A DNA stretch of 64,000 nt from Actinobacteria bacterium HGW-Actinobacteria-2 (GTDB taxonomy: Bacteria; Actinomycetota; Actinomycetes; Propionibacteriales; Propionibacteriaceae): contig PHEY01000009.1 in the NCBI GenBank assembly GCA_002841335.1, positions 124,001-188,000 on the forward strand, in the 5' to 3' direction. The translations under genes and the position numbers were made by a program. The notes beneath the pieces were generated by a model. It had not been told where the DNA came from. It saw nothing but the letters and a program-made list of their open reading frames with translations, and made no database searches. Shown piece after piece: positions 9,662 through 21,321 of this stretch (position 1 is the stretch's first letter; every line of letters begins with the position of its first letter).

Positions 9662-9734
9662 GGGGCTATGGCGCAGTTGGTAGCGCGCTTCCATGGCATG
9701 GAAGAGGTCAGGGGTTCGAATCCCCTTAGCTCCA
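9662..9734 (+). tRNA. tRNA-Ala (GGC)
   Basis: A 73-base cloverleaf. The acceptor GGGGCTA pairs with TAGCTCC, the D-loop is normal, the anticodon stem is CTTCC/GGAAG with loop ATGGCAT (anticodon GGC), and the T-arm is GGGGTTCGAATCCCC. CCA is not encoded. Its 3' end is the edge of the accessory region to the right. Confidence 0.97.
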
Positions 9735-9738
9735 CTCA
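9723..9738 (+). repeat. Left 16-bp direct repeat at the IS481 insertion
   Basis: CCCTTAGCTCCACTCA covers the last twelve bases of tRNA-Ala plus four bases beyond and recurs exactly at 11005–11020, on the other side of the insertion sequence. This is best read as the target-site duplication, so the tRNA stayed intact. Confidence 0.85.
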
Positions 9739-10932
9739 TGTGATGAGTCGGGACATGTGTCTCAGATGAGTCGAGACATAGGTCTCAGTGTTGAAGGGTC
9801 CCTGGCCATCGGCCAGGGGCCTTTTGCGTGTTTGGCCGATCTCGCCGGTGTCCAGGGCGATGGTGGTGATGGTGGTGTCGTCGGCGATGGCCAGGACGCG
9901 GGTGCCTTTGTGGGCGGCTGCGATGTGGAGGTGGTGCAGGCGGCCTGCTCTGCGCAGGGTGATGCGTCCGGTTTTGTCGATGCGGTCGTAGCGGATGCGG
10001 TAGTGGCTGGTGGTGGTTGTGGTGGCTGGTGTGGCTTTGGGGCTGGCGTGGTAGGCGTCGGCTGGGGTGGTGCGGTTGAGGGCTCGGTGGGGTCGGTGAT
10101 GGTTGTAGTGGCCGGTGAAGGTGTCGAGTTGGTGTTGGAGAGCGGTCAGGGTGGCTGGGGCGGGTTGAGCGGCCAGCCAGCGTTTCAGGGTTTGGTGGAA
10201 GCGTTCGATCTTGCCTTGGGTTTGGGGATGGTTGGGTGAGCCGTTCTTCTGGATCACGCCGAGCAGGGGCAGCAGGTACTCGAACGCGTTACGTCCGCCG
10301 GTGAACCGGGAGGTGTATACCGCTCCGTTGTCGGTGAGGGTCGAGGCGGGGACGCCATAGGTGTCGCAGCTGGTCAGGAAGGTGTTGACCACATCGTCGC
10401 CGGTGACTCTGGTGAACGCGACACAAGCCAGCAGGTAGCGGGAGTGGTCATCGAGCCAGTTCAGGATCTCGACCCCGCTACCGTCAGCCAACTGCCAGTG
10501 CGTGAAGTCGGACTGCCAGCACCGGTTGGGCAGGTCGGCCTCAAACCGGACATAGGAGGCCTTGGGTCGTTTCCTCGGCTGCGGGGTGACCAGCCCGGCA
10601 GCGTGCAGGACCCGGCGGATCGTGGAGATTGCCGGTGGCCGGATCTGTTCTTGTTCGAGATGCCAACCGATCGTGGCCGGCCCGGCATCCAACCCTGAGG
10701 CAGTCAGCTCGCGGCGTAGCTCCACGATCCGAGCCCGAACCGCTTCGCTGGTCGTTGACGGGTTCGATCTCGGTCTTCGCGACCGCGGTTCTAACCCAGC
10801 CAAGCCTTCCGCCCGGTACCTGGCCAGCAGCCGGTGAACATGCCGGCGCGACACCCCATAGGCCGCTGCGGCCTCGCTCACACTCAACTGCCCGGCCACG
10901 ATCTTCAACACCACAACCCGATGCTTCGACAT
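9736..10932 (-). CDS. IS481-family transposase
   Basis: DDE recombinase of 398 residues. The N-terminus has a helix-turn-helix (SVSEAAAAYGVSRRHVHRLL), then a second HTH-like region, then the rve core with CWQSDFTHW, LDDHSRYL, TDNGAVY and the final glutamate in GKIERFHQTLKRW. The last ~90 residues after HRALNRTTPADAY resemble the C-terminal extension of IS481 relatives. It appears intact. The reading frame runs through the left terminal repeat, and its stop codon (bases 9736–9738) lies in the target-site duplication rather than in the element. Confidence 0.93.
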   Translation of the reverse strand: MSKHRVVVLKIVAGQLSVSEAAAAYGVSRRHVHRLLARYRAEGLAGLEPRSRRPRSNPSTTSEAVRARIVELRRELTASGLDAGPATIGWHLEQEQIRPPAISTIRRVLHAAGLVTPQPRKRPKASYVRFEADLPNRCWQSDFTHWQLADGSGVEILNWLDDHSRYLLACVAFTRVTGDDVVNTFLTSCDTYGVPASTLTDNGAVYTSRFTGGRNAFEYLLPLLGVIQKNGSPNHPQTQGKIERFHQTLKRWLAAQPAPATLTALQHQLDTFTGHYNHHRPHRALNRTTPADAYHASPKATPATTTTTSHYRIRYDRIDKTGRITLRRAGRLHHLHIAAAHKGTRVLAIADDTTITTIALDTGEIGQTRKRPLADGQGPFNTETYVSTHLRHMSRLIT

Positions 10933-11004
10933 GCACCCGACTGTGACCTATGTCCCGACTCACCAGAGACCTATCACTAGAGACCTATGTCGTGAACTCA
11001 GACA
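9739..11004. mobile_element. IS481-family insertion sequence, apparently complete
   Basis: A 1266-bp element with TGT ends. The left end begins TGTGATGAGTCGGGACATG and the right end, read inward, begins TGTCTGAGTTCACGACATAG. Aligned with small gaps they share TGAGT, GACAT, GTCTC and TGA. Further copies of GAGTCGRGACATAGGTC lie near both ends (about 9767–9786 and 10935–10955), probably transposase binding sites. It is flanked by 16-bp direct repeats and carries one full-length transposase gene. Confidence 0.88.
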
Positions 11005-11020
11005 CCCTTAGCTCCACTCA
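11005..11020 (+). repeat. Right 16-bp direct repeat at the IS481 insertion
   Basis: Exact copy of 9723–9738 (CCCTTAGCTCCACTCA). It joins the insertion to the original sequence behind tRNA-Ala, which continues into the tRNA terminator. Confidence 0.85.
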
Positions 11021-11053
11021 CTCTAGGTGACGTGTGCCCGCCAGTTGGCGGGC
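11013..11053 (+). repeat. Left attachment-like repeat (copy A)
   Basis: 41 bases starting in the tRNA-Ala 3' end region (TCCACTCACTCT…GGCGGGC), matching copy C at 15544–15584 at 34 of 41 positions. Part of it also forms the tRNA terminator stem. A shorter relative (copy B, 11121–11143) matches 20 of 23 bases of its right half. Confidence 0.7.
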
Positions 11054-11265: not shown

Positions 11266-11982
11266 GTGGCGAACACCCAGCGCATCGGAGATAACAGCAG
11301 CGGCAACCAGCAGATCTACACGCACGGCGACGTCACGGCTCCGTTCGCCGAAGGTGGCAGCATCTCCATCGGCGGGGACAATCACGGCATCGTGATCACC
11401 TCAGTGCCAACGCCGGAAGAGCCGCAGCACACCTTCGACATCATCAAGAAGACCCGGATTCCGACCCCGGCTACGCTCATCGGCGTTGTCTCCAGCCTGA
11501 TCACTATCGCCGGGTTCGTCACGGGTGGCTTCTCTGTCAAGCAGCTCATCGATGTGTACAAGTCGGGTGGTGGCTTCCATGGCTCGAGTGCGGTGCCTAC
11601 TGAGTACTGGTGGCTTTTCGGCTCCCTGCTCGCGGTCTTCGTCAGCTTGATTGGTTGGTCGTTCGCACGGTTCCTTCGGCGGAACGTCCTCCGTCTGCCG
11701 AAGCAGTGGTTCTTCCGTGCGTGGGCAGGCATCAAGGAGGCCAACGGCAGAACGTACCCGTACTCGCTTCGCCTTTCGATGCGGTGTCCAAAGTGCAAGA
11801 ACCAGAAGCTCCGCTTCCAACAGATACCGGAGAAGTGGGTCGACTTCTACGACGGCAACGGCACACACACTAAGCGGGATGTGACGAAGTGGGCATCGAT
11901 GGCTGTCTGCCCACGCAACGAAGATCATTCGCTTCGGGTTGATATCTCAGGCAACGACTTTGACGAGGCGCTACCGCGGTAG
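11266..11982 (+). CDS. Two-helix membrane protein with C-terminal zinc-ribbon-like motif, unknown function
   Basis: I do not recognise the family. The 238 residues divide into a Gly/Asp/Asn-rich N-terminus (IGDNSSGNQQIYTHGDV…GGSISIGGDNHG, 7–41), two hydrophobic helices (about 68–88 and 113–135) separated by a short loop, a basic amphipathic stretch (RFLRRNVLRLPKQW), and a cytoplasmic-type C-terminus with C174-P-K-C177 and C215…H221 that could bind zinc. The GTG start at 11266 follows AAGGAGG at five bases. It converges on the Gabija-like operon inside the island, so a role in defence or signalling is possible but unproven. Confidence 0.7.
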   Translation: MANTQRIGDNSSGNQQIYTHGDVTAPFAEGGSISIGGDNHGIVITSVPTPEEPQHTFDIIKKTRIPTPATLIGVVSSLITIAGFVTGGFSVKQLIDVYKSGGGFHGSSAVPTEYWWLFGSLLAVFVSLIGWSFARFLRRNVLRLPKQWFFRAWAGIKEANGRTYPYSLRLSMRCPKCKNQKLRFQQIPEKWVDFYDGNGTHTKRDVTKWASMAVCPRNEDHSLRVDISGNDFDEALPR

Positions 11983-12174: not shown

Positions 12175-13248
12175 TCACGGAGTCCAACGCGGCAGCAAGT
12201 GGTGGCTCGAATCGGATACGACGAAGGCAACCGAGTGCTTTGCCCTCGTGACTGCGACGTACAGGCGTGCAGCTGACGTGTCCGCGAGTAGCGCGCCGGT
12301 CAGCAGGAAGGCTTCGATTGGTTTCGTCGGATAGATCAGCACGCGTTCGACAGTGATGCCTTTCGCCTGCCCGAAGTTGGTGGCTGTGCATCCTTCGTGG
12401 ATCTTGGATGTGCTCTTGTCGCGCAACACCTCCGGACTGAACTTCTCCAGGTACTCAGGGACGTGGTCCCAGGTGACAACGAACACGCCGTCGTGGCCCG
12501 TCCTCACGCTCTGATGAGACGTTGTGTTCGGCAGGCTGAAGCGGACGGGTACGACGCTGTCTGCGAAATCGATGATCTCCTGGGTGCAGCGCCAAGTTGC
12601 GGTTCGATACTCGATGAGGCAGAGGGTCTTCCTTTCCATCTCTCGGAACCACTCGACCTTGTTCATCCCCTGGTACTTCTTGTTCTTCGTGTCAGACCGA
12701 CTGGTCGAGAAGACCGACTGGCGCACATCACCCACCAATGTGATATTCATCTTGGACCTCAGCATGAGCTCGAGTACCCCGAGGTCATTTCCGGTGAGAT
12801 CCTGCACTTCATCGATGTAGATCTCATCGAAGATGCGCTCAAGGCGATCGACGACCGCGCCGTGGCTCGCGATCGCGATGTCATAGGCGAGCTTCCCAAG
12901 GCGGTGGCTGTAGACCCGGCCTTCCGGATCGATGTATCGGTCCGCACCACGCGCGAACCGAGCCGGATCTGCACCTTCAACCCAGTGGAGGCCTGTGACC
13001 GATCTTCCTGGATACACGTCTGGCAGGTACGGCCGTACGACGTGGTTGAGGAGGAAGGAGAACCACCCGCTCACCTCGGGCATTGCCTCGGGTGAGCAAT
13101 CTTGGCGAAGTCGTGAGCGCAGCACGTCCTGCCCCGTGGTTGCGAACGACACCACTAGTCGTCGAGCATCTGTGGATGAAGCGCAACAATCGACGATGTG
13201 CTGGGTCTTGCGGCCCCCGGCCGCGGCAAGGATGACGGTGTTCATCAC
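12175..13248 (-). CDS. Compact UvrD-like SF1 helicase, GajB-like
   Basis: 357 residues with a nearly full SF1A motif set: a degenerate Walker A AAAGGRKTQ (8–16), Walker B YIDEVQD (144–150), motif III LVGDVRQ (171–177), the motif IV-like YRTATWRCTQEIIDFAD (214–230), motif V NFGQAKGITVERV (291–303) and motif VI LYVAVTRAKH (329–338). It is far shorter than UvrD (about 720) and also shorter than the B. cereus GajB (about 490), so the 1B/2B inserts are largely missing. It overlaps the OLD nuclease gene by four bases (ATGA), the gene order of class 2 OLD/Gabija loci. The expected role is to sense or process phage nucleic acid with GajA; this is inferred from the family. Confidence 0.82.
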   Translation of the reverse strand: MMNTVILAAAGGRKTQHIVDCCASSTDARRLVVSFATTGQDVLRSRLRQDCSPEAMPEVSGWFSFLLNHVVRPYLPDVYPGRSVTGLHWVEGADPARFARGADRYIDPEGRVYSHRLGKLAYDIAIASHGAVVDRLERIFDEIYIDEVQDLTGNDLGVLELMLRSKMNITLVGDVRQSVFSTSRSDTKNKKYQGMNKVEWFREMERKTLCLIEYRTATWRCTQEIIDFADSVVPVRFSLPNTTSHQSVRTGHDGVFVVTWDHVPEYLEKFSPEVLRDKSTSKIHEGCTATNFGQAKGITVERVLIYPTKPIEAFLLTGALLADTSAARLYVAVTRAKHSVAFVVSDSSHHLLPRWTP

Positions 13249-14843
13249 TTACGAATGAAGGTAATCGCTTTAGTGATGTAGCCCGGGTACTTGATCTGTC
13301 TTGCGCTCGTCGCGATCCTCCACGCCGACTCCGTCTTGTTGTCCGTCAGGTGGTCCGTCAGATCCTCGCCGTCCGGGCAACCGACGATGGTGCCGAGGGT
13401 GGCAAGGTCGGCGTTGTTAGCCGAGACAAGTTGCGGCTCGAGGGTTGAGCCTTCTCCCGGGTCACCAACGAACATCTCACGGACGCCATCCTCGAGGTAT
13501 GGCTTCGCCTGGTCCTTCCAATGCTGAGGGGTTCGCTTGTCGACGTCGCGCAAGATGGCTACTCGCCGGTCTAGAAGGTGGCATAGCTCAAGCGGACGCC
13601 GATTCTGAGTGCCATAGGTGAGGACGTCAATCCCGTCATCAACCGGGTCCTGTCCGGTCTGGTCCTTGTATGCACGATTAAAGATCATCTCGTCCGATGG
13701 GCCCTCGACGATGACGACCTTCCGTGCCAGCACCACTCGGAGTGTGTCGTAGCCCGACTGCTTCTTGAAGTAGCTCACCGTCTCCGCATCGAGGCCACGA
13801 AATTCCTTCACCTTCCCTTGGTGCATCAGGTGTATCCGGTCTAGCCCTAAGCGGTTCATGACGTAGGAACTGTGTGTGACAACGAAAGTTTGTCGACCGC
13901 CCGCCAGCTTCTCGATGGATGCGATGACGGACATAAGCCCGGTGTGGGACAAGTGATTCTCGGGCTCCTCTACGAGCACGAAGCTCGTTTTGCCCGACGT
14001 TGCCTGAAGCGCCAGCGCAGTTTTCATGATGACCTGCTGTCCCTGGCCAGCCATGGCGAAGGGCACGCTGCCAACCTGCGGGATCACCGCGGCTTCCCAA
14101 CCAGAGGACGCGGATTGGTCGAGGTGCAATTCGATTTGCCCGGTAAGCAGACCTTGCGTCATTGTTCGGATCTTCTGATTGACTCCGGCCAAGACCGACT
14201 GGGTGAGTTCGTGTCGCGACTGACGAAACGCAACTGAGATTGCTGCGCCATCCCGCTTGTCAACGGCATCGGCCAGCATCTGCCGCGTGTGATTGTCGAC
14301 TCCGCTCGACGAACGCACGGTCCTGCCATCGATGAACGCCACACCAAACTCGGGCGGACGCCGCTGGAGTTGCAGCTCCCGGAAGTCCAGCCATCGAGCT
14401 CGGAAGTACTCTGCTGGCAGCACAGGCGGGTGCGAGCTTCGAAGATACTGATCGAACTCCGGCTCAAAGTCTGGGTCAAGCTCAATCACAAGGCGCAGAC
14501 CCGGGCAGTCCTCATGCCGTGAGTTGACCTTGCCACGCAGGGTCTGCGGCTGGTCGTCTTTCGCGAAGTAAACCTCAATGAGGATCTGAGGCGGTTCAAG
14601 CTTGTCGCCACCTGCGATCGCCGTGAAGTACTCCGCGACTGCCTCGGTGTTAAACCAGAAAGGGTTGATTTCTTCTCCGGGGCGCCGACCGTTCACCCTG
14701 CCAGTCAGCACAAGACCGAGCGCTTCGAGGAGCGTGGACTTGCCAGCCTCATTGTCCCCTACGACAATGTTCATGCCATCCAGTGGCACGAAATCAAGAT
14801 GCCTAAGGCACCGATAGTTTTGAACGATTACACGGGTGATCAT
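13245..14843 (-). CDS. OLD-family ATPase/TOPRIM nuclease, GajA-like
   Basis: 532-residue class 2 OLD protein. The N-terminal ABC-type ATPase has Walker A VVGDNEAGKST (27–37), a signature-like AMAGQGQQ region (263–270), Walker B SFVLVEEPENH (287–297) and the H-loop VVTHSS (321–326). The C-terminal TOPRIM domain has VVIVEGPSDE (376–385, E380) and the metal-binding D433-V-D435, with E469 as a possible third acidic site. Gabija GajA proteins are DNA nickases held in check by nucleotides and activated in infection; length and domain order fit (B. cereus GajA about 580). It is the first gene of a two-gene minus-strand operon with the short helicase. Confidence 0.88.
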   Translation of the reverse strand: MITRVIVQNYRCLRHLDFVPLDGMNIVVGDNEAGKSTLLEALGLVLTGRVNGRRPGEEINPFWFNTEAVAEYFTAIAGGDKLEPPQILIEVYFAKDDQPQTLRGKVNSRHEDCPGLRLVIELDPDFEPEFDQYLRSSHPPVLPAEYFRARWLDFRELQLQRRPPEFGVAFIDGRTVRSSSGVDNHTRQMLADAVDKRDGAAISVAFRQSRHELTQSVLAGVNQKIRTMTQGLLTGQIELHLDQSASSGWEAAVIPQVGSVPFAMAGQGQQVIMKTALALQATSGKTSFVLVEEPENHLSHTGLMSVIASIEKLAGGRQTFVVTHSSYVMNRLGLDRIHLMHQGKVKEFRGLDAETVSYFKKQSGYDTLRVVLARKVVIVEGPSDEMIFNRAYKDQTGQDPVDDGIDVLTYGTQNRRPLELCHLLDRRVAILRDVDKRTPQHWKDQAKPYLEDGVREMFVGDPGEGSTLEPQLVSANNADLATLGTIVGCPDGEDLTDHLTDNKTESAWRIATSARQIKYPGYITKAITFIRK

Positions 14844-15155
14844 TAACTATCCCATTATCTCGCAGAGCCAGCGTGGTGACCATAGAACTTTAGGCGGGCC
14901 ACTTAGCAGCGGTGGCCTGCCACGCCGATGTCGATAGCATCTTCGACACGCCAACTGGCACGCGACGACCACTCGGCCTGCGTGCCAAGGTGTCCGTCCA
15001 CGCCTGGAACGCAGTGCCGCCGGATGCGCTGACCCTGCCTTACCGAAGACGCATCTAGGACGACCAGCTACTCGGATGCCTGCCACAAGGGGTCGCGCGA
15101 CTCTGCTTCAGGCACCCCATGAGGCCCGGAGAGTATCCGCGATGATCGAGCCCTA
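14844..15155. other. 312-bp gap upstream of the Gabija-like operon, with a possible gene remnant
   Basis: This region must hold the promoter of the minus-strand OLD gene; the A/T-richer first 50 bases (around 14843–14890) fit that. On the plus strand an open stretch of about 55 codons ending at the TAG at 15056–15058 reads …GLRAKVSVHAWNAVPPDA… but has no start codon. It may be the 3' remnant of a lost gene. No family was recognised. Confidence 0.35.
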
Positions 15156-15548
15156 TCAAGACCAAGACTGCCGCCTTCCGCCTTGTCGCGCCCTGATCGC
15201 CACTCCCTGCGCCGCAATGGCCTTCCGCACGCACCACGCGTCGACGCCAAACTCCTCACCAGCGCGGGCAAGCGACCAGCCCGACTCGCACAACGCGGCG
15301 GCGCGTCCAACATGATCGGGCAGGAGACCTCGCGGCTTCGGCTCCAACCCTGCAACCTTGGCGATCTCACGCACCGTCTTGCGATGCACTCCAAACCGTG
15401 CAGCGATCCCCTTGGCCGGCACGCCGTCCCGATATAGCTCCACCACTTGCTGGCGTTTCACCCTGCCAAGGGGCACCTGTGATTGTTGGAGATAATCCAT
15501 CTGTGCCGTAGCCGAACCCAGGATCGCCTCTGAACTATCTACGTCCAT
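15156..15548 (-). CDS. Small protein with two helix-turn-helix segments
   Basis: 130 residues, soluble. Two HTH-like units are visible: QQVVELYRDGVPAKGIAARF…HRKTVREIAK (about 33–64) and AAALCESGWSLARAGEEFGVDAWCVRKAIAAQG (about 83–116). This tandem resembles the DNA-binding tails of serine recombinases and small proteins found next to them, but no catalytic domain is present. The ATG at 15548 lies inside the right attachment-like repeat and lacks a clear ribosome-binding site; ATG 15500 (MDYLQQSQ) is an alternative. It could be a regulator or a recombinase remnant. Confidence 0.6.
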   Translation of the reverse strand: MDVDSSEAILGSATAQMDYLQQSQVPLGRVKRQQVVELYRDGVPAKGIAARFGVHRKTVREIAKVAGLEPKPRGLLPDHVGRAAALCESGWSLARAGEEFGVDAWCVRKAIAAQGVAIRARQGGRRQSWS

Positions 15549-15584
15549 TCACTCTGTGTGACGCGCGCCCGTCGGTTGGCGGGC
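15544..15584 (+). repeat. Right attachment-like repeat (copy C)
   Basis: Matches 11013–11053 at 34 of 41 positions, including TCA-CTCT, GTGACG, GCCCG and GTTGGCGGGC. Similarity weakly extends left into the part equivalent to the tRNA 3' end (TA..TCCA). It marks the probable right end of the island. Confidence 0.65.
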
Positions 15585-16068: not shown

Positions 16069-16423
16069 AGCGATGACCTCACCGATTCCTCGGACCGGGT
16101 GCCTGCGAGCCGAGAATTTCCGCGGGACGAACCGCGCCCAGCAATGTCGAGAGACATGACCACCCCTTTTGTGGTTTCAGCCTTCGAGCTCTCCACGCTA
16201 TACCTGCCTGCGTCGCGGCGATAGGCACCAGCCTCCGCTGGCGCAATCGTCCGGCGCCGCTTGAGGCAAATCCGACCACGAAGATCCCGGCCCCCGATAA
16301 GGCACCGCTTATCGGTACAGCGCCGTCGGACGGACTGGCTATCCTTTCCATGCCGGACCCACCCGCGCACCACCGGCTTGGTCCGGTTGCATGCGTGGTT
16401 TCACACGACTGAGGGGAGACAGC
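16069..16423. other. 355-bp intergenic region between divergent genes
   Basis: No gene is supported. It should hold promoters for both neighbours. A perfect 8-bp inverted repeat, CCGATAAG (16294–16301) and CTTATCGG (16308–16315) with a 6-base spacer, is the main structure; it could be an operator or a small hairpin in the leader of the acidic protein gene. Confidence 0.45.
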
Positions 16424-18266: not shown

Positions 18267-19877
18267 GTGGACACCAGTAGCACCCCCGACACGACGTCAG
18301 ACCTGACGACCGACCGACGCCAGCTGTTCGGCCTCACGGTCGGCGGCGGCTTGGCCCTCGCCAGTCTGGCCACTCCGACGCCCGCAGCGGCGGTACCGCT
18401 GCCGTCCGCGCCGGTCCTGCCTGAGCGCATCAGCACCCTCTCCGGCACGCTGGAGCTGAACTCGACGCTCGCCTGGCACCTGGCTCGGCGCGTGTGCCCA
18501 GCCCCCACTCCATCGATCGTCGCCGACATCAACAAGCGCGGCTACAACGCCTGGATCGAGCGACAACTCTCCTGGTCCAAGATCAAGGACACCCAGGCCA
18601 AAGCCCTGGTGAAGAAGCATCTCAGCTGGGCAACCAAGACCACCAAGGAGGTCGACAAGGCCAGCCACGGCCAGTCCTGGCGCGCCGGCAAGGCGATGAG
18701 TGTCTCGCGGACCATCTGGCAGATCTACACCAAGCGCTACCTGTACGAGTCGATGGTCGACACCATGGCCGACCAGCTCTACATCTCGGCCGACGGAAAG
18801 GCCGGTTCCTTCGTCGGTTGGTTCGACTGGAAGGTGCTACGCAAACACGCGCTGGGCAAGTACTCCGACATGCTTTACGCCGCCATCACCCACCCGGCGA
18901 TGCAGATCTACCTGGACAACCACCTCAACTCCGTCACCAACCCGAACGAGAACCTCGGCCGAGAACTCCTCGAACTGCACACCGTCGGTGTGGGCAACTA
19001 CACCGAGGACGACGTGCGCCAGTCGGCGCTGCTGCTGACCGGCCACGGCCTGGACTGGAAGAAGTACACCTACAAGTTCTGGGAGTGGAACCACTACGTC
19101 GGCCCGCTGAAGATCATGGACTTCACCCACCCCAACGCCAGCCGCAAGGCCGGACCGGACGCGCTGCGCAAGTACCTGTGGTACCTGGCGCACCATCCGG
19201 CCACGGCTCGCCGGATCGCCCGGCGGCTGGCCGTCCGCTACGTCTCCGACTCTCCCTCCGACGCCTTGGTGGAGTCGCTGGCGCAGGTGTACTTGGCCAA
19301 CAACACCTCACTACGGGCCACCATGCGCGCCCTGCTCCACAGCGACGAGTTCAAGAACTCCGTCGGCGAGAAGTGGCGCCGCCCGCAGGAGACGATGGCC
19401 GCCATGATCAAGGCCCAGAAGCCCGGCACCATCAAGCCGAAGGGCAAGCAGTCGGGCAACCTGTGGGACATCCTGGGCACCGTCGAATGGCTGCTGTCGA
19501 CCGGCGGTCACGTGCCGCGGATGTGGCCGGTGGTCAACGGCTACCCCGACCAAGCCCGCGACTGGATGGCCACCCAAGACATGCTGGCCCACTTCGACGC
19601 CGCGTTCGCCCGGGTGAACTGGAAGGACAAGGAGATACCGGTGAAGTCGTGGGCCTCCGCCCTCGGCGTGACCACCTCGATGACCGCAGAACAGGCCGCG
19701 TCCCGGATCACCTACCGGCTCACCGGCTACAGCTGGAACGCCGCCGACCTGGCGGTGATCACCGCCCGACTGCGCGGTGGCTACACCGGTTCCACGCTCA
19801 CGAAGAACCAGATCAAGAACCGACTTCCCCTGGCGGTCCATCTGGTGTTCTGCTCCCCCTACTTCATGCTTCGGTGA
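18267..19877 (+). CDS. DUF1800 family secreted protein (Tat-type signal)
   Basis: 536 residues. The N-terminus has a twin-arginine motif (DRRQLFG, 16–22) and a hydrophobic stretch ending in PAAA, so export by Tat is likely. The body is DUF1800: LAWHLARRVCPAP near the start, ENLGRELLELHTVGVGNYTEDDVRQSALLLTG in the middle and VFCSPYFMLR at the end. DUF1800 proteins are regularly encoded beside DUF1501 proteins, as here (13 bases apart). Function is not established; a cell-surface or polymer-related role has been suggested for the pair. GTG start with AAAGGCGG upstream. Confidence 0.88.
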   Translation: MDTSSTPDTTSDLTTDRRQLFGLTVGGGLALASLATPTPAAAVPLPSAPVLPERISTLSGTLELNSTLAWHLARRVCPAPTPSIVADINKRGYNAWIERQLSWSKIKDTQAKALVKKHLSWATKTTKEVDKASHGQSWRAGKAMSVSRTIWQIYTKRYLYESMVDTMADQLYISADGKAGSFVGWFDWKVLRKHALGKYSDMLYAAITHPAMQIYLDNHLNSVTNPNENLGRELLELHTVGVGNYTEDDVRQSALLLTGHGLDWKKYTYKFWEWNHYVGPLKIMDFTHPNASRKAGPDALRKYLWYLAHHPATARRIARRLAVRYVSDSPSDALVESLAQVYLANNTSLRATMRALLHSDEFKNSVGEKWRRPQETMAAMIKAQKPGTIKPKGKQSGNLWDILGTVEWLLSTGGHVPRMWPVVNGYPDQARDWMATQDMLAHFDAAFARVNWKDKEIPVKSWASALGVTTSMTAEQAASRITYRLTGYSWNAADLAVITARLRGGYTGSTLTKNQIKNRLPLAVHLVFCSPYFMLR

Positions 19878-19890
19878 CCGGAGGAACGAC

Positions 19891-21321
19891 ATGTCACAGT
19901 CCCTGGACGACAGCCTCACCCGTGGTGAAGCACTGCTGCACGAAGACCTGATCACTCCCCTGCACGACCACGACGAGGCACGAAATCGGCTGCTGGCCAA
20001 GATCGACGGCGCCACCCGCGTGGTCAGCCCCGAACAAGCCAACAGCTACGCCACCACGGTTGAACCGAATCTCGGGATCGACGAGGTCGAGCACGATGCC
20101 GACGGGCCCAAGACCGGACGCCGCGGCCTGTTCAAAGGCACGCTGATCGGGCTGGGCGGCCTATTGGCGGCCTCGGCGATGCCGCGATACTCCTTCGCCC
20201 AGACCAACGGCGATCTGCTGATCTGCGTGTTCCTGCGCGGAGGTTTCGACGGGCTGTCGGCGATCGGACGTCCCGACGATGCCGACTACCTCAAGGCACG
20301 CAAGGCGATGGCGGTGAACGACGCCAGCAAGAGCAAGTCGCTCGGCGGCGGGTTCCTGCTCAGCCCGTCCCTCGGCGCGCTCGGCCCGATCTGGGACGCC
20401 GGTCAGCTGGCCGTCGTCCGGGCGTCCGGGCATCCGAAGGTCTCCCGGTCACACTTCGAGGACCAGGCCATGTGCGAGCGAGCCGCAGCGGCCAACGTCC
20501 GCTCGGGCTGGCTGGGTCGCCACATCGCCACCTCGTCGGCCACCTCCGGCACCTTCCGGGCGATCACCATCGGCGACCGGGTGGTGTTGTCGCTGACCAC
20601 CACCGCGCACCAGTCGCTGGCCATGTCCTCGGTGGAGAGCTTCGATCTGTGGTCGGCCTGGAACGGCCGCGACGCCTTGGTCAGCGACATCGCCAAGCTG
20701 TACGGCAGCGCCGGCGGCGTGATCGAGAACCAGGTCAAGGGCACCGTCGACGCGGTGAACGCATTGCGCACGGTGCGGGAAACCAAGTACACCCCGGCCA
20801 ACGGAGCCAAATACCCCAAGACCAGCTTCGGTGACGGCCTGAAGGACATCGCCCGGCTGGCCAAGGCCGGGGTCGGCATGGAGGTCGCCTGCATCGACTA
20901 CGACGGCTGGGATCTGCACCAGGCCTCGGGTTCGCCCTACCAAGCCAAGGGCGCGTTCTCGACGATGGCCGCCGATCTGGCCAGCGCGATCGCCGCACTG
21001 CGCACCGATCTGGGCTCCCGCTGGAACAGCGTCACCGTGGTCACCATGAGCGAGTTCGGACGGCGGGTGGCGATCAACGGCGCCGGTGGCACCGATCACG
21101 GCCACGGCAACGTCCAGTTCATCATGGGCGGCTCGATCCGCGGCGGGCTGTATGGCGAGATGCCGCTGCTCAGCTCCGGCAACCTCGTCCAGGGCGACGT
21201 GCCGATTCTGACCGACTACCGGCAGGCGCTGTCCGAGGTGGTCAGCAAGCGGTTGGGCAACAGCAAGATCGATGAGGTGTTCCCCGGATTCACGCCCGCG
21301 ACCGCGCTCGGGGTGGCCTGA
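19891..21321 (+). CDS. DUF1501 family secreted protein (Tat-type signal)
   Basis: 476 residues from the ATG at 19891, preceded by GGAGGAACGAC. An unusual ~75-residue hydrophilic leader comes before the twin-arginine signal GRRGLFKG…LAASAMPRYSFA (76–103). The mature part shows the alkaline-phosphatase-like fold typical of DUF1501: LLICVFLRGGFDGLSA, LSPSLGALGPIWDAGQLAVV, HFEDQAMCERA, YDGWDLHQ and TMSEFGRRVAINGAGGTDHGHGN with candidate metal ligands. Probably co-exported and co-acting with the DUF1800 protein encoded just upstream. Confidence 0.9.
   Translation: MSQSLDDSLTRGEALLHEDLITPLHDHDEARNRLLAKIDGATRVVSPEQANSYATTVEPNLGIDEVEHDADGPKTGRRGLFKGTLIGLGGLLAASAMPRYSFAQTNGDLLICVFLRGGFDGLSAIGRPDDADYLKARKAMAVNDASKSKSLGGGFLLSPSLGALGPIWDAGQLAVVRASGHPKVSRSHFEDQAMCERAAAANVRSGWLGRHIATSSATSGTFRAITIGDRVVLSLTTTAHQSLAMSSVESFDLWSAWNGRDALVSDIAKLYGSAGGVIENQVKGTVDAVNALRTVRETKYTPANGAKYPKTSFGDGLKDIARLAKAGVGMEVACIDYDGWDLHQASGSPYQAKGAFSTMAADLASAIAALRTDLGSRWNSVTVVTMSEFGRRVAINGAGGTDHGHGNVQFIMGGSIRGGLYGEMPLLSSGNLVQGDVPILTDYRQALSEVVSKRLGNSKIDEVFPGFTPATALGVA

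Follow-up and report, generated by a model that had tools for sequence, protein, structure and literature searches.

A predicted Gabija operon of the compact branch beside an actinobacterial tRNA-Ala gene

The Gabija system of B. cereus VD045 (PDB 8SM3, 8J4T, 8JQB) joins an OLD ATPase-Toprim protein, GajA, to an SF1A motor, GajB. In B. cereus, GajA tetramerises and GajB docks onto it through its 1A and 1B subdomains, the N-terminal region of GajB binding and the C-terminal region not; changes at the interface abolish defence and both genes are required (PMC10781630, PMC10822852, PMC10681800). Yet this GajB shows neither helicase activity nor unwinding in vitro (PMC10681800, PMC10822852, PMC10781630), which raises the question of what such a motor contributes to a defence that cannot do without it, and whether it needs to unwind DNA at all. 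The Gabija system of P. aeruginosa targets linear DNA that lacks RecBCD (PMC12407980).

Here we describe a gene pair from a 64-kb window, that is, the whole stretch of DNA that was analysed. The pair shares with the B. cereus system its gene order, its overlapping genes and its OLD ATPase-Toprim plus SF1A motor composition, in a smaller format: GajB has about 356 residues as against 494, and GajA 532 as against 578. We consider it probable that these two genes are a Gabija defence operon from a compact branch, acquired as a small islet, in which GajA forms the nuclease core and GajB is a docked ATPase that licenses it.

Family assignment of the gene pair

Two adjacent full-length ORFs, both on the minus strand, span exactly positions 12175-14843 of the window, where a preliminary description had placed an OLD/TOPRIM gene and a helicase; its coordinates proved exact for the pair, whose strand it had left unstated. 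The gajA-like gene (13245..14843) starts with ATG and encodes a 532-aa OLD-type ABC ATPase with a Toprim nuclease, as judged from family models, fold and conserved catalytic residues. All the motifs listed in that description are found in this protein, namely GDNEAGKST (with K35), EEPEN (292-296), VEGPSDE (379-385) and DVD (433-435), and they stand well beyond chance, given their conservation across 84 pairs and the end-to-end PADLOC GajA and GajB matches. The 357-aa product of the gajB-like gene (12175..13248) carries the SF1 motifs and is a predicted SF1A helicase-like ATPase that lacks the 2B subdomain. The junction is not the ATGA overlap that had been claimed; it reads ...AAG TGA TGAAC, with the gajA stop TGA at 13247-13245. 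A gajB start at GTG 13248 gives 357 aa and a 4-nt overlap (GTGA), and a start at ATG 13245 gives 356 aa and a 1-nt overlap (TGATG). Translation from ATG 13245 appears more likely, because aligned relatives begin MNK. Upstream of gajA, a consensus scan picks out a weak promoter-like site (14854..14882, minus strand) whose -10-like hexamer ends 11 nt before the ATG; four such sites were found in the region, with 0.9 expected.

Searches with the PADLOC GajA and GajB models matched both proteins over their full length. Residues 1-529 of GajA match PDLC00098 (E 2.7e-159) and PDLC00102 (E 3.2e-157), and GajB matches PDLC00140 (E 3.4e-110) and PDLC00148 (E 7e-102) end to end. These models are themselves short (534 and 532 aa for GajA, 365 and 369 positions for GajB), of the same sizes as the proteins of the locus, and we see no evident difference between them and the locus; distant members of the branch also gave full-length GajA and GajB matches in every case tested. 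Outside the branch, the nearest models are again a GajA (PDLC00078) and a GajB (PDLC00120), both ahead of Old and RTasHel. In Pfam, GajA matches AAA_15, AAA_21 and OLD-like_TOPRIM above cut-off and GajB matches UvrD-helicase; in NCBIfam neither protein was named at the family's own cut-off. Readings as Retron, Septu, MADS or AriA (PARIS) were rejected, the family scores being against them.

The Gabija architecture first proposed for the pair thus stands, the best PADLOC models being full-length GajA and GajB and the folds matching solved Gabija structures. The accompanying suggestion of a distinct subtype, made from helicase size, survives in part. The difference in size is real and a conserved trait of the whole branch, not a quirk of one locus; for that branch, however, PADLOC already has model pairs of its own (PDLC00098/00102 and PDLC00140/00148). 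With two GajB models only 365-369 aa long, the defence databases already cover the short-GajB form, and since relatives also lie on over 1,600 plasmid records, no new system has been discovered: the locus belongs to a compact Gabija branch that is known and catalogued. A search of mainly open-access literature returned no named Gabija subtypes, and in the open-access papers searched we found no description of 2B loss and a shortened Toprim tail as branch traits. Within this scope, we regard the two traits as a structural observation of moderate interest and not as a new system.

The Toprim tail of GajA and the 2B subdomain of GajB

On the evidence of its sequence and its structural model (mean pLDDT 86.1), GajA combines an ABC ATPase with a site for a Toprim nuclease. 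In its Walker A motif (G29-T37, including K35; 14733..14759, minus strand), G29 and K35 are invariant in 84 proteins and S36 is kept in 83; E292, E293 and H324 are likewise invariant across the 84 pairs. The Toprim active site (Glu, DxD, Lys) is complete, with E380, D433, D435, E469 and K503 invariant in the same 84 proteins, and this E/D/D/K set is shared with the B. cereus system. The catalytic residues E380, D384, D433, D435, T467, E469 and K503 (13335..13706, minus strand) correspond to E379/E383/D432/D434/D511/D513/K541 in BcGajA and to E400/E404/D455/D457/T506/E508/K562 in BpOLD (residue lists from PMC10822852), so that the third acidic site, T467/E469, resembles T506/E508 of BpOLD and not D511/D513 of BcGajA. 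At residue 434 the locus has V (DVD), where 79 of 84 relatives have N (DND). The spacing from the Glu to the DxD is 55 in both GajA and BcGajA, and the DxD lies only 68 residues from the catalytic Lys in GajA, as against 107 in BcGajA and 105 in BpOLD. The Toprim tail is therefore some 38 residues shorter than in these class 2 references, which hints that the helical insert of about 50 aa that marks the class 2 Toprim domain relative to class 1 is missing; since class 1 P2 Old, the product of the phage P2 old gene, is long too (96), the two classes cannot be told apart by Toprim spacing alone.

Could the pair then be a separate system, in which a class 1-like OLD nuclease was independently paired with a small SF1 motor and lumped into Gabija by PADLOC? 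The short tail would fit, and in both profile score (62 vs 48 bits) and VIA score (Z 24.4 vs 21.1) the class 1 OLD of Thermus scotoductus (TsOLD, 6P74) matches GajA at least as well as BcGajA does. Identities among OLD proteins are near 15-20%, and few GajA sequences from outside the branch were in the sample. TsOLD is also similar in length (528 aa) and matches the fold over its whole length (438 residues aligned, rmsd 6.7). On the GajB side, a profile of 53 sequences scores BcGajB, its best solved relative, at 66.8 bits, almost equal to Rep (66.2) and UvrD (65.4). Foldseek, on the other hand, ranks BcGajA first for the GajA model (2.6e-20) and TsOLD third (1.1e-18), and its first match for the GajB model is a Gabija GajB chain (8tk1_F, E 3e-14). 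For both proteins, the PADLOC models that come closest from outside the branch are those of GajA and GajB, and the gene order and overlap are Gabija-like. TsOLD, moreover, is encoded alone, as is typical of class 1 OLD, whereas the GajA of the locus is overlapped by a conserved helicase-like partner. We therefore find a separate origin improbable and keep the assignment to Gabija.

The compaction of GajB can be followed in the alignment. The GajB profile aligns with BcGajB in two collinear pieces (4-247 on 11-250 and 286-357 on 418-480), skipping the 2B subdomain, which occupies residues 306-416 of BcGajB (PMC10822852); in the branch, about 38 residues replace the segment of roughly 250-418 that contains 2B. 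The Walker A Lys lies 132 residues from motif II at the locus (branch median 135) and, as counted in the alignment, about 139 in BcGajB, a similar distance that shows 1A and 1B to be retained. Sequence and AlphaFold2 model (mean pLDDT 96.2) agree in showing an SF1A motor with 1A, 1B and 2A, the subdomains common to B. cereus GajB and to the UvrD/Rep/PcrA helicases, and without 2B; VIA aligns 328 of 356 residues of the model to Rep with a Z of 25.7, the highest reached among these helicases, with which the SF1 motifs are also shared. GajB differs from them in its missing 2B and in its OLD nuclease partner. The four-subdomain UvrD layout, a trait of the BcGajB type structure that is not stated as a requirement of the family, is thus absent here, and the 365-369-aa PADLOC GajB models likewise fall below four-subdomain length. 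The Walker A motif, AAGGRKT (13204..13224, minus strand), and motif II, DEVQD (residues 145-149 in ATG numbering; 12799..12813, minus strand), contribute residues to a set that is invariant across 84 pairs: G10, K13, D145, E146, Q148, D149, D173, Q176, R219, K295, G296 and R334. Within the Walker A motif, GajB residue 12 is Arg at the locus and not Gly, as in 17 of 84.

Relatives and a proposed mechanism

A scan of genome contigs with single proteins returned no relatives; an alignment-based scan returned 80 loci in bacteria and archaea, which makes the branch a widespread one. A short helicase accompanies GajA at 87 of 88 loci, normally just downstream, again in both domains, and over these 88 loci the median lengths are 540 aa for GajA and 365 aa for GajB, with an 8-nt overlap as the median junction. 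Distances among GajA and GajB proteins correlate at r = 0.91 over 84 pairs (maximum 0.20 in 2,000 permutations), a value to which shared ancestry contributes. An even sample of 396 genomes of the phylum yielded only one further member, and close relatives occur in only 2 of 29 sampled genomes of the same genus. Both genes are present in four genomes from the same order or genus, with GajA identities of 45-53% and a different setting each time; inspection of translations placed one pair next to a tyrosine integrase and another next to a type I restriction gene. A search for a conserved third partner among the 142 nearest neighbour ORFs found no Pfam family in more than five and no PADLOC family in more than two, a heterogeneity that argues against any conserved third component. 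The closest GajA found (57%) lies on a contig named as a Firmicute, Asaccharospora irregularis (L057), the next best being actinobacterial; horizontal transfer or a mixed assembly could possibly explain it. At another locus (L129, 6647-9797), an IS21-type element with transposase and ATPase ORFs separates gajA from the remaining gajB frame, and at two more (L062, L122) the mini-helicase frame downstream of gajA is split or interrupted, possibly reflecting inactivated systems or sequencing errors.

Relatives of this GajA appear on 1,719 plasmid records, dominated by Klebsiella (787) and Escherichia (662), and 1,101 of the records are predicted to be conjugative. In the enterobacterial records that we read (L137 4995-7567, L138 4995-7564, L147 2995-5564), a 340-aa GajB overlaps GajA and vapBC lies directly upstream. 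One such pair (WP_001128474.1 and WP_000361402.1; 521 and 340 aa, overlapping genes) falls in the same PADLOC branch, although it is only 29%/27% identical to our locus and is flanked by vapBC. The annotation of the E. coli pair goes no further than AAA ATPase and helicase UvrD, but the PADLOC models assign it to the compact Gabija branch. Plasmid carriage on this scale, the proximity of vapBC and the report that LsGajA is a non-specific nuclease degrading plasmids (PMC13304284) might suggest that the main targets of the pair are plasmids or other mobile DNA and not phages, or that it serves mobile elements in competing with one another. We think this unlikely, since tested Gabija systems restrict phages (PMC12407980, PMC10781630) and plasmid carriage is common for defence genes. 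The papers searched contained no published phage assay on a member of this exact branch, and we infer an antiphage activity for the operon.

How might a Gabija operon of this kind work? By analogy with B. cereus, GajA would assemble into a multimeric nuclease core, onto which GajB would dock through its retained 1A/1B half. Because 2B, whose rotation activates UvrD and Rep, is missing, UvrD-type unwinding is unlikely; GajB is therefore most simply seen as an ATPase stimulated by DNA or DNA ends that would license, or gate, the GajA nuclease. The trigger could be the DNA of an invading phage, or DNA ends that host repair enzymes leave unprotected. GajA would then nick or degrade the sensed DNA, and infection would stop. 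More tentatively, the branch could be a mechanistically distinct, minimal Gabija, in which 2B loss and the short Toprim tail would mean that GajB never unwinds DNA in the UvrD manner and serves as an ATPase sensor or switch alone; this stronger version strikes us as conceivable and somewhat doubtful. On this reading, nature would have carried out a deletion experiment on the role of GajB. Natural loss of 2B across a large branch, with all SF1 motifs and the GajA-binding half kept, narrows that role to ATP-driven sensing or gating. The compact branch also supplies smaller proteins for structural work. Among enterobacteria it is found on well over a thousand plasmid records, and there it may influence susceptibility to phages and competition between plasmids.

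A tRNA-side islet

The operon sits within a low-GC islet of about 4.5 kb (GC 0.60, with gajA at 0.583 and the window at 0.667) beside a tRNA-Ala(GGC) gene (9662..9735, plus strand) that anchors a variable site. The pairing of PAP2 and tRNA-Ala is conserved in the genus, being found in 11 same-genus regions examined, but the DNA downstream of it differs. In two genomes (G008, G022), the window gene at 16391 has its homologue within about 1.8-2.6 kb after the tRNA gene, and no Gabija lies there; the operon is absent from the equivalent tRNA-Ala site in relatives. The islet is bounded by a 41-nt tRNA-flank/terminator repeat, with a left copy at 11013..11053 and a right copy at 15544..15584 (both plus strand; 83% of 41 nt), whose core hairpin occurs at these two sites only in the 2.92-Mb genome. 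These features fit the view that the operon arrived with the islet at a variable site next to the tRNA gene.

Between the tRNA gene and the left repeat lies an IS481-family insertion sequence (9739..11004; transposase 10932-9736 on the minus strand), the only full copy in the genome. A 16-bp target duplication, CCCTTAGCTCCACTCA, borders it at 9723-9738 and 11005-11020, and its insertion point coincides exactly with the tRNA-Ala 3' end. This insertion at the tRNA end of the islet, the lack of an integrase within the islet and the V at GajA residue 434 could be read as signs of a decaying, inactive remnant. Against this, both ORFs are full length with their catalytic residues intact, and residue 434 lies outside the metal ligands in the BcGajA and BpOLD lists (PMC10822852); we hold decay to be very improbable.

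Two further ORFs share the islet. One (11266..11982, plus strand), convergent with gajB, encodes 238 aa that match no family at curated threshold; the N terminus of the protein is rich in Gly (IYTHGDVTAPFAEGGSISIGGDN), its middle is hydrophobic, and it carries cysteines in the pattern CPKC...CPRN. The other (15156..15548, minus strand) starts inside the right repeat and encodes a 130-aa HTH protein (HTH_23, E 3e-9). Both were rejected as extra components of the system because no fetched relative has them. Further along the window, on the plus strand, adjacent DUF1800 and DUF1501 genes occupy 18267-21321, and these also lie downstream of the tRNA in two relatives examined (L039, L041).
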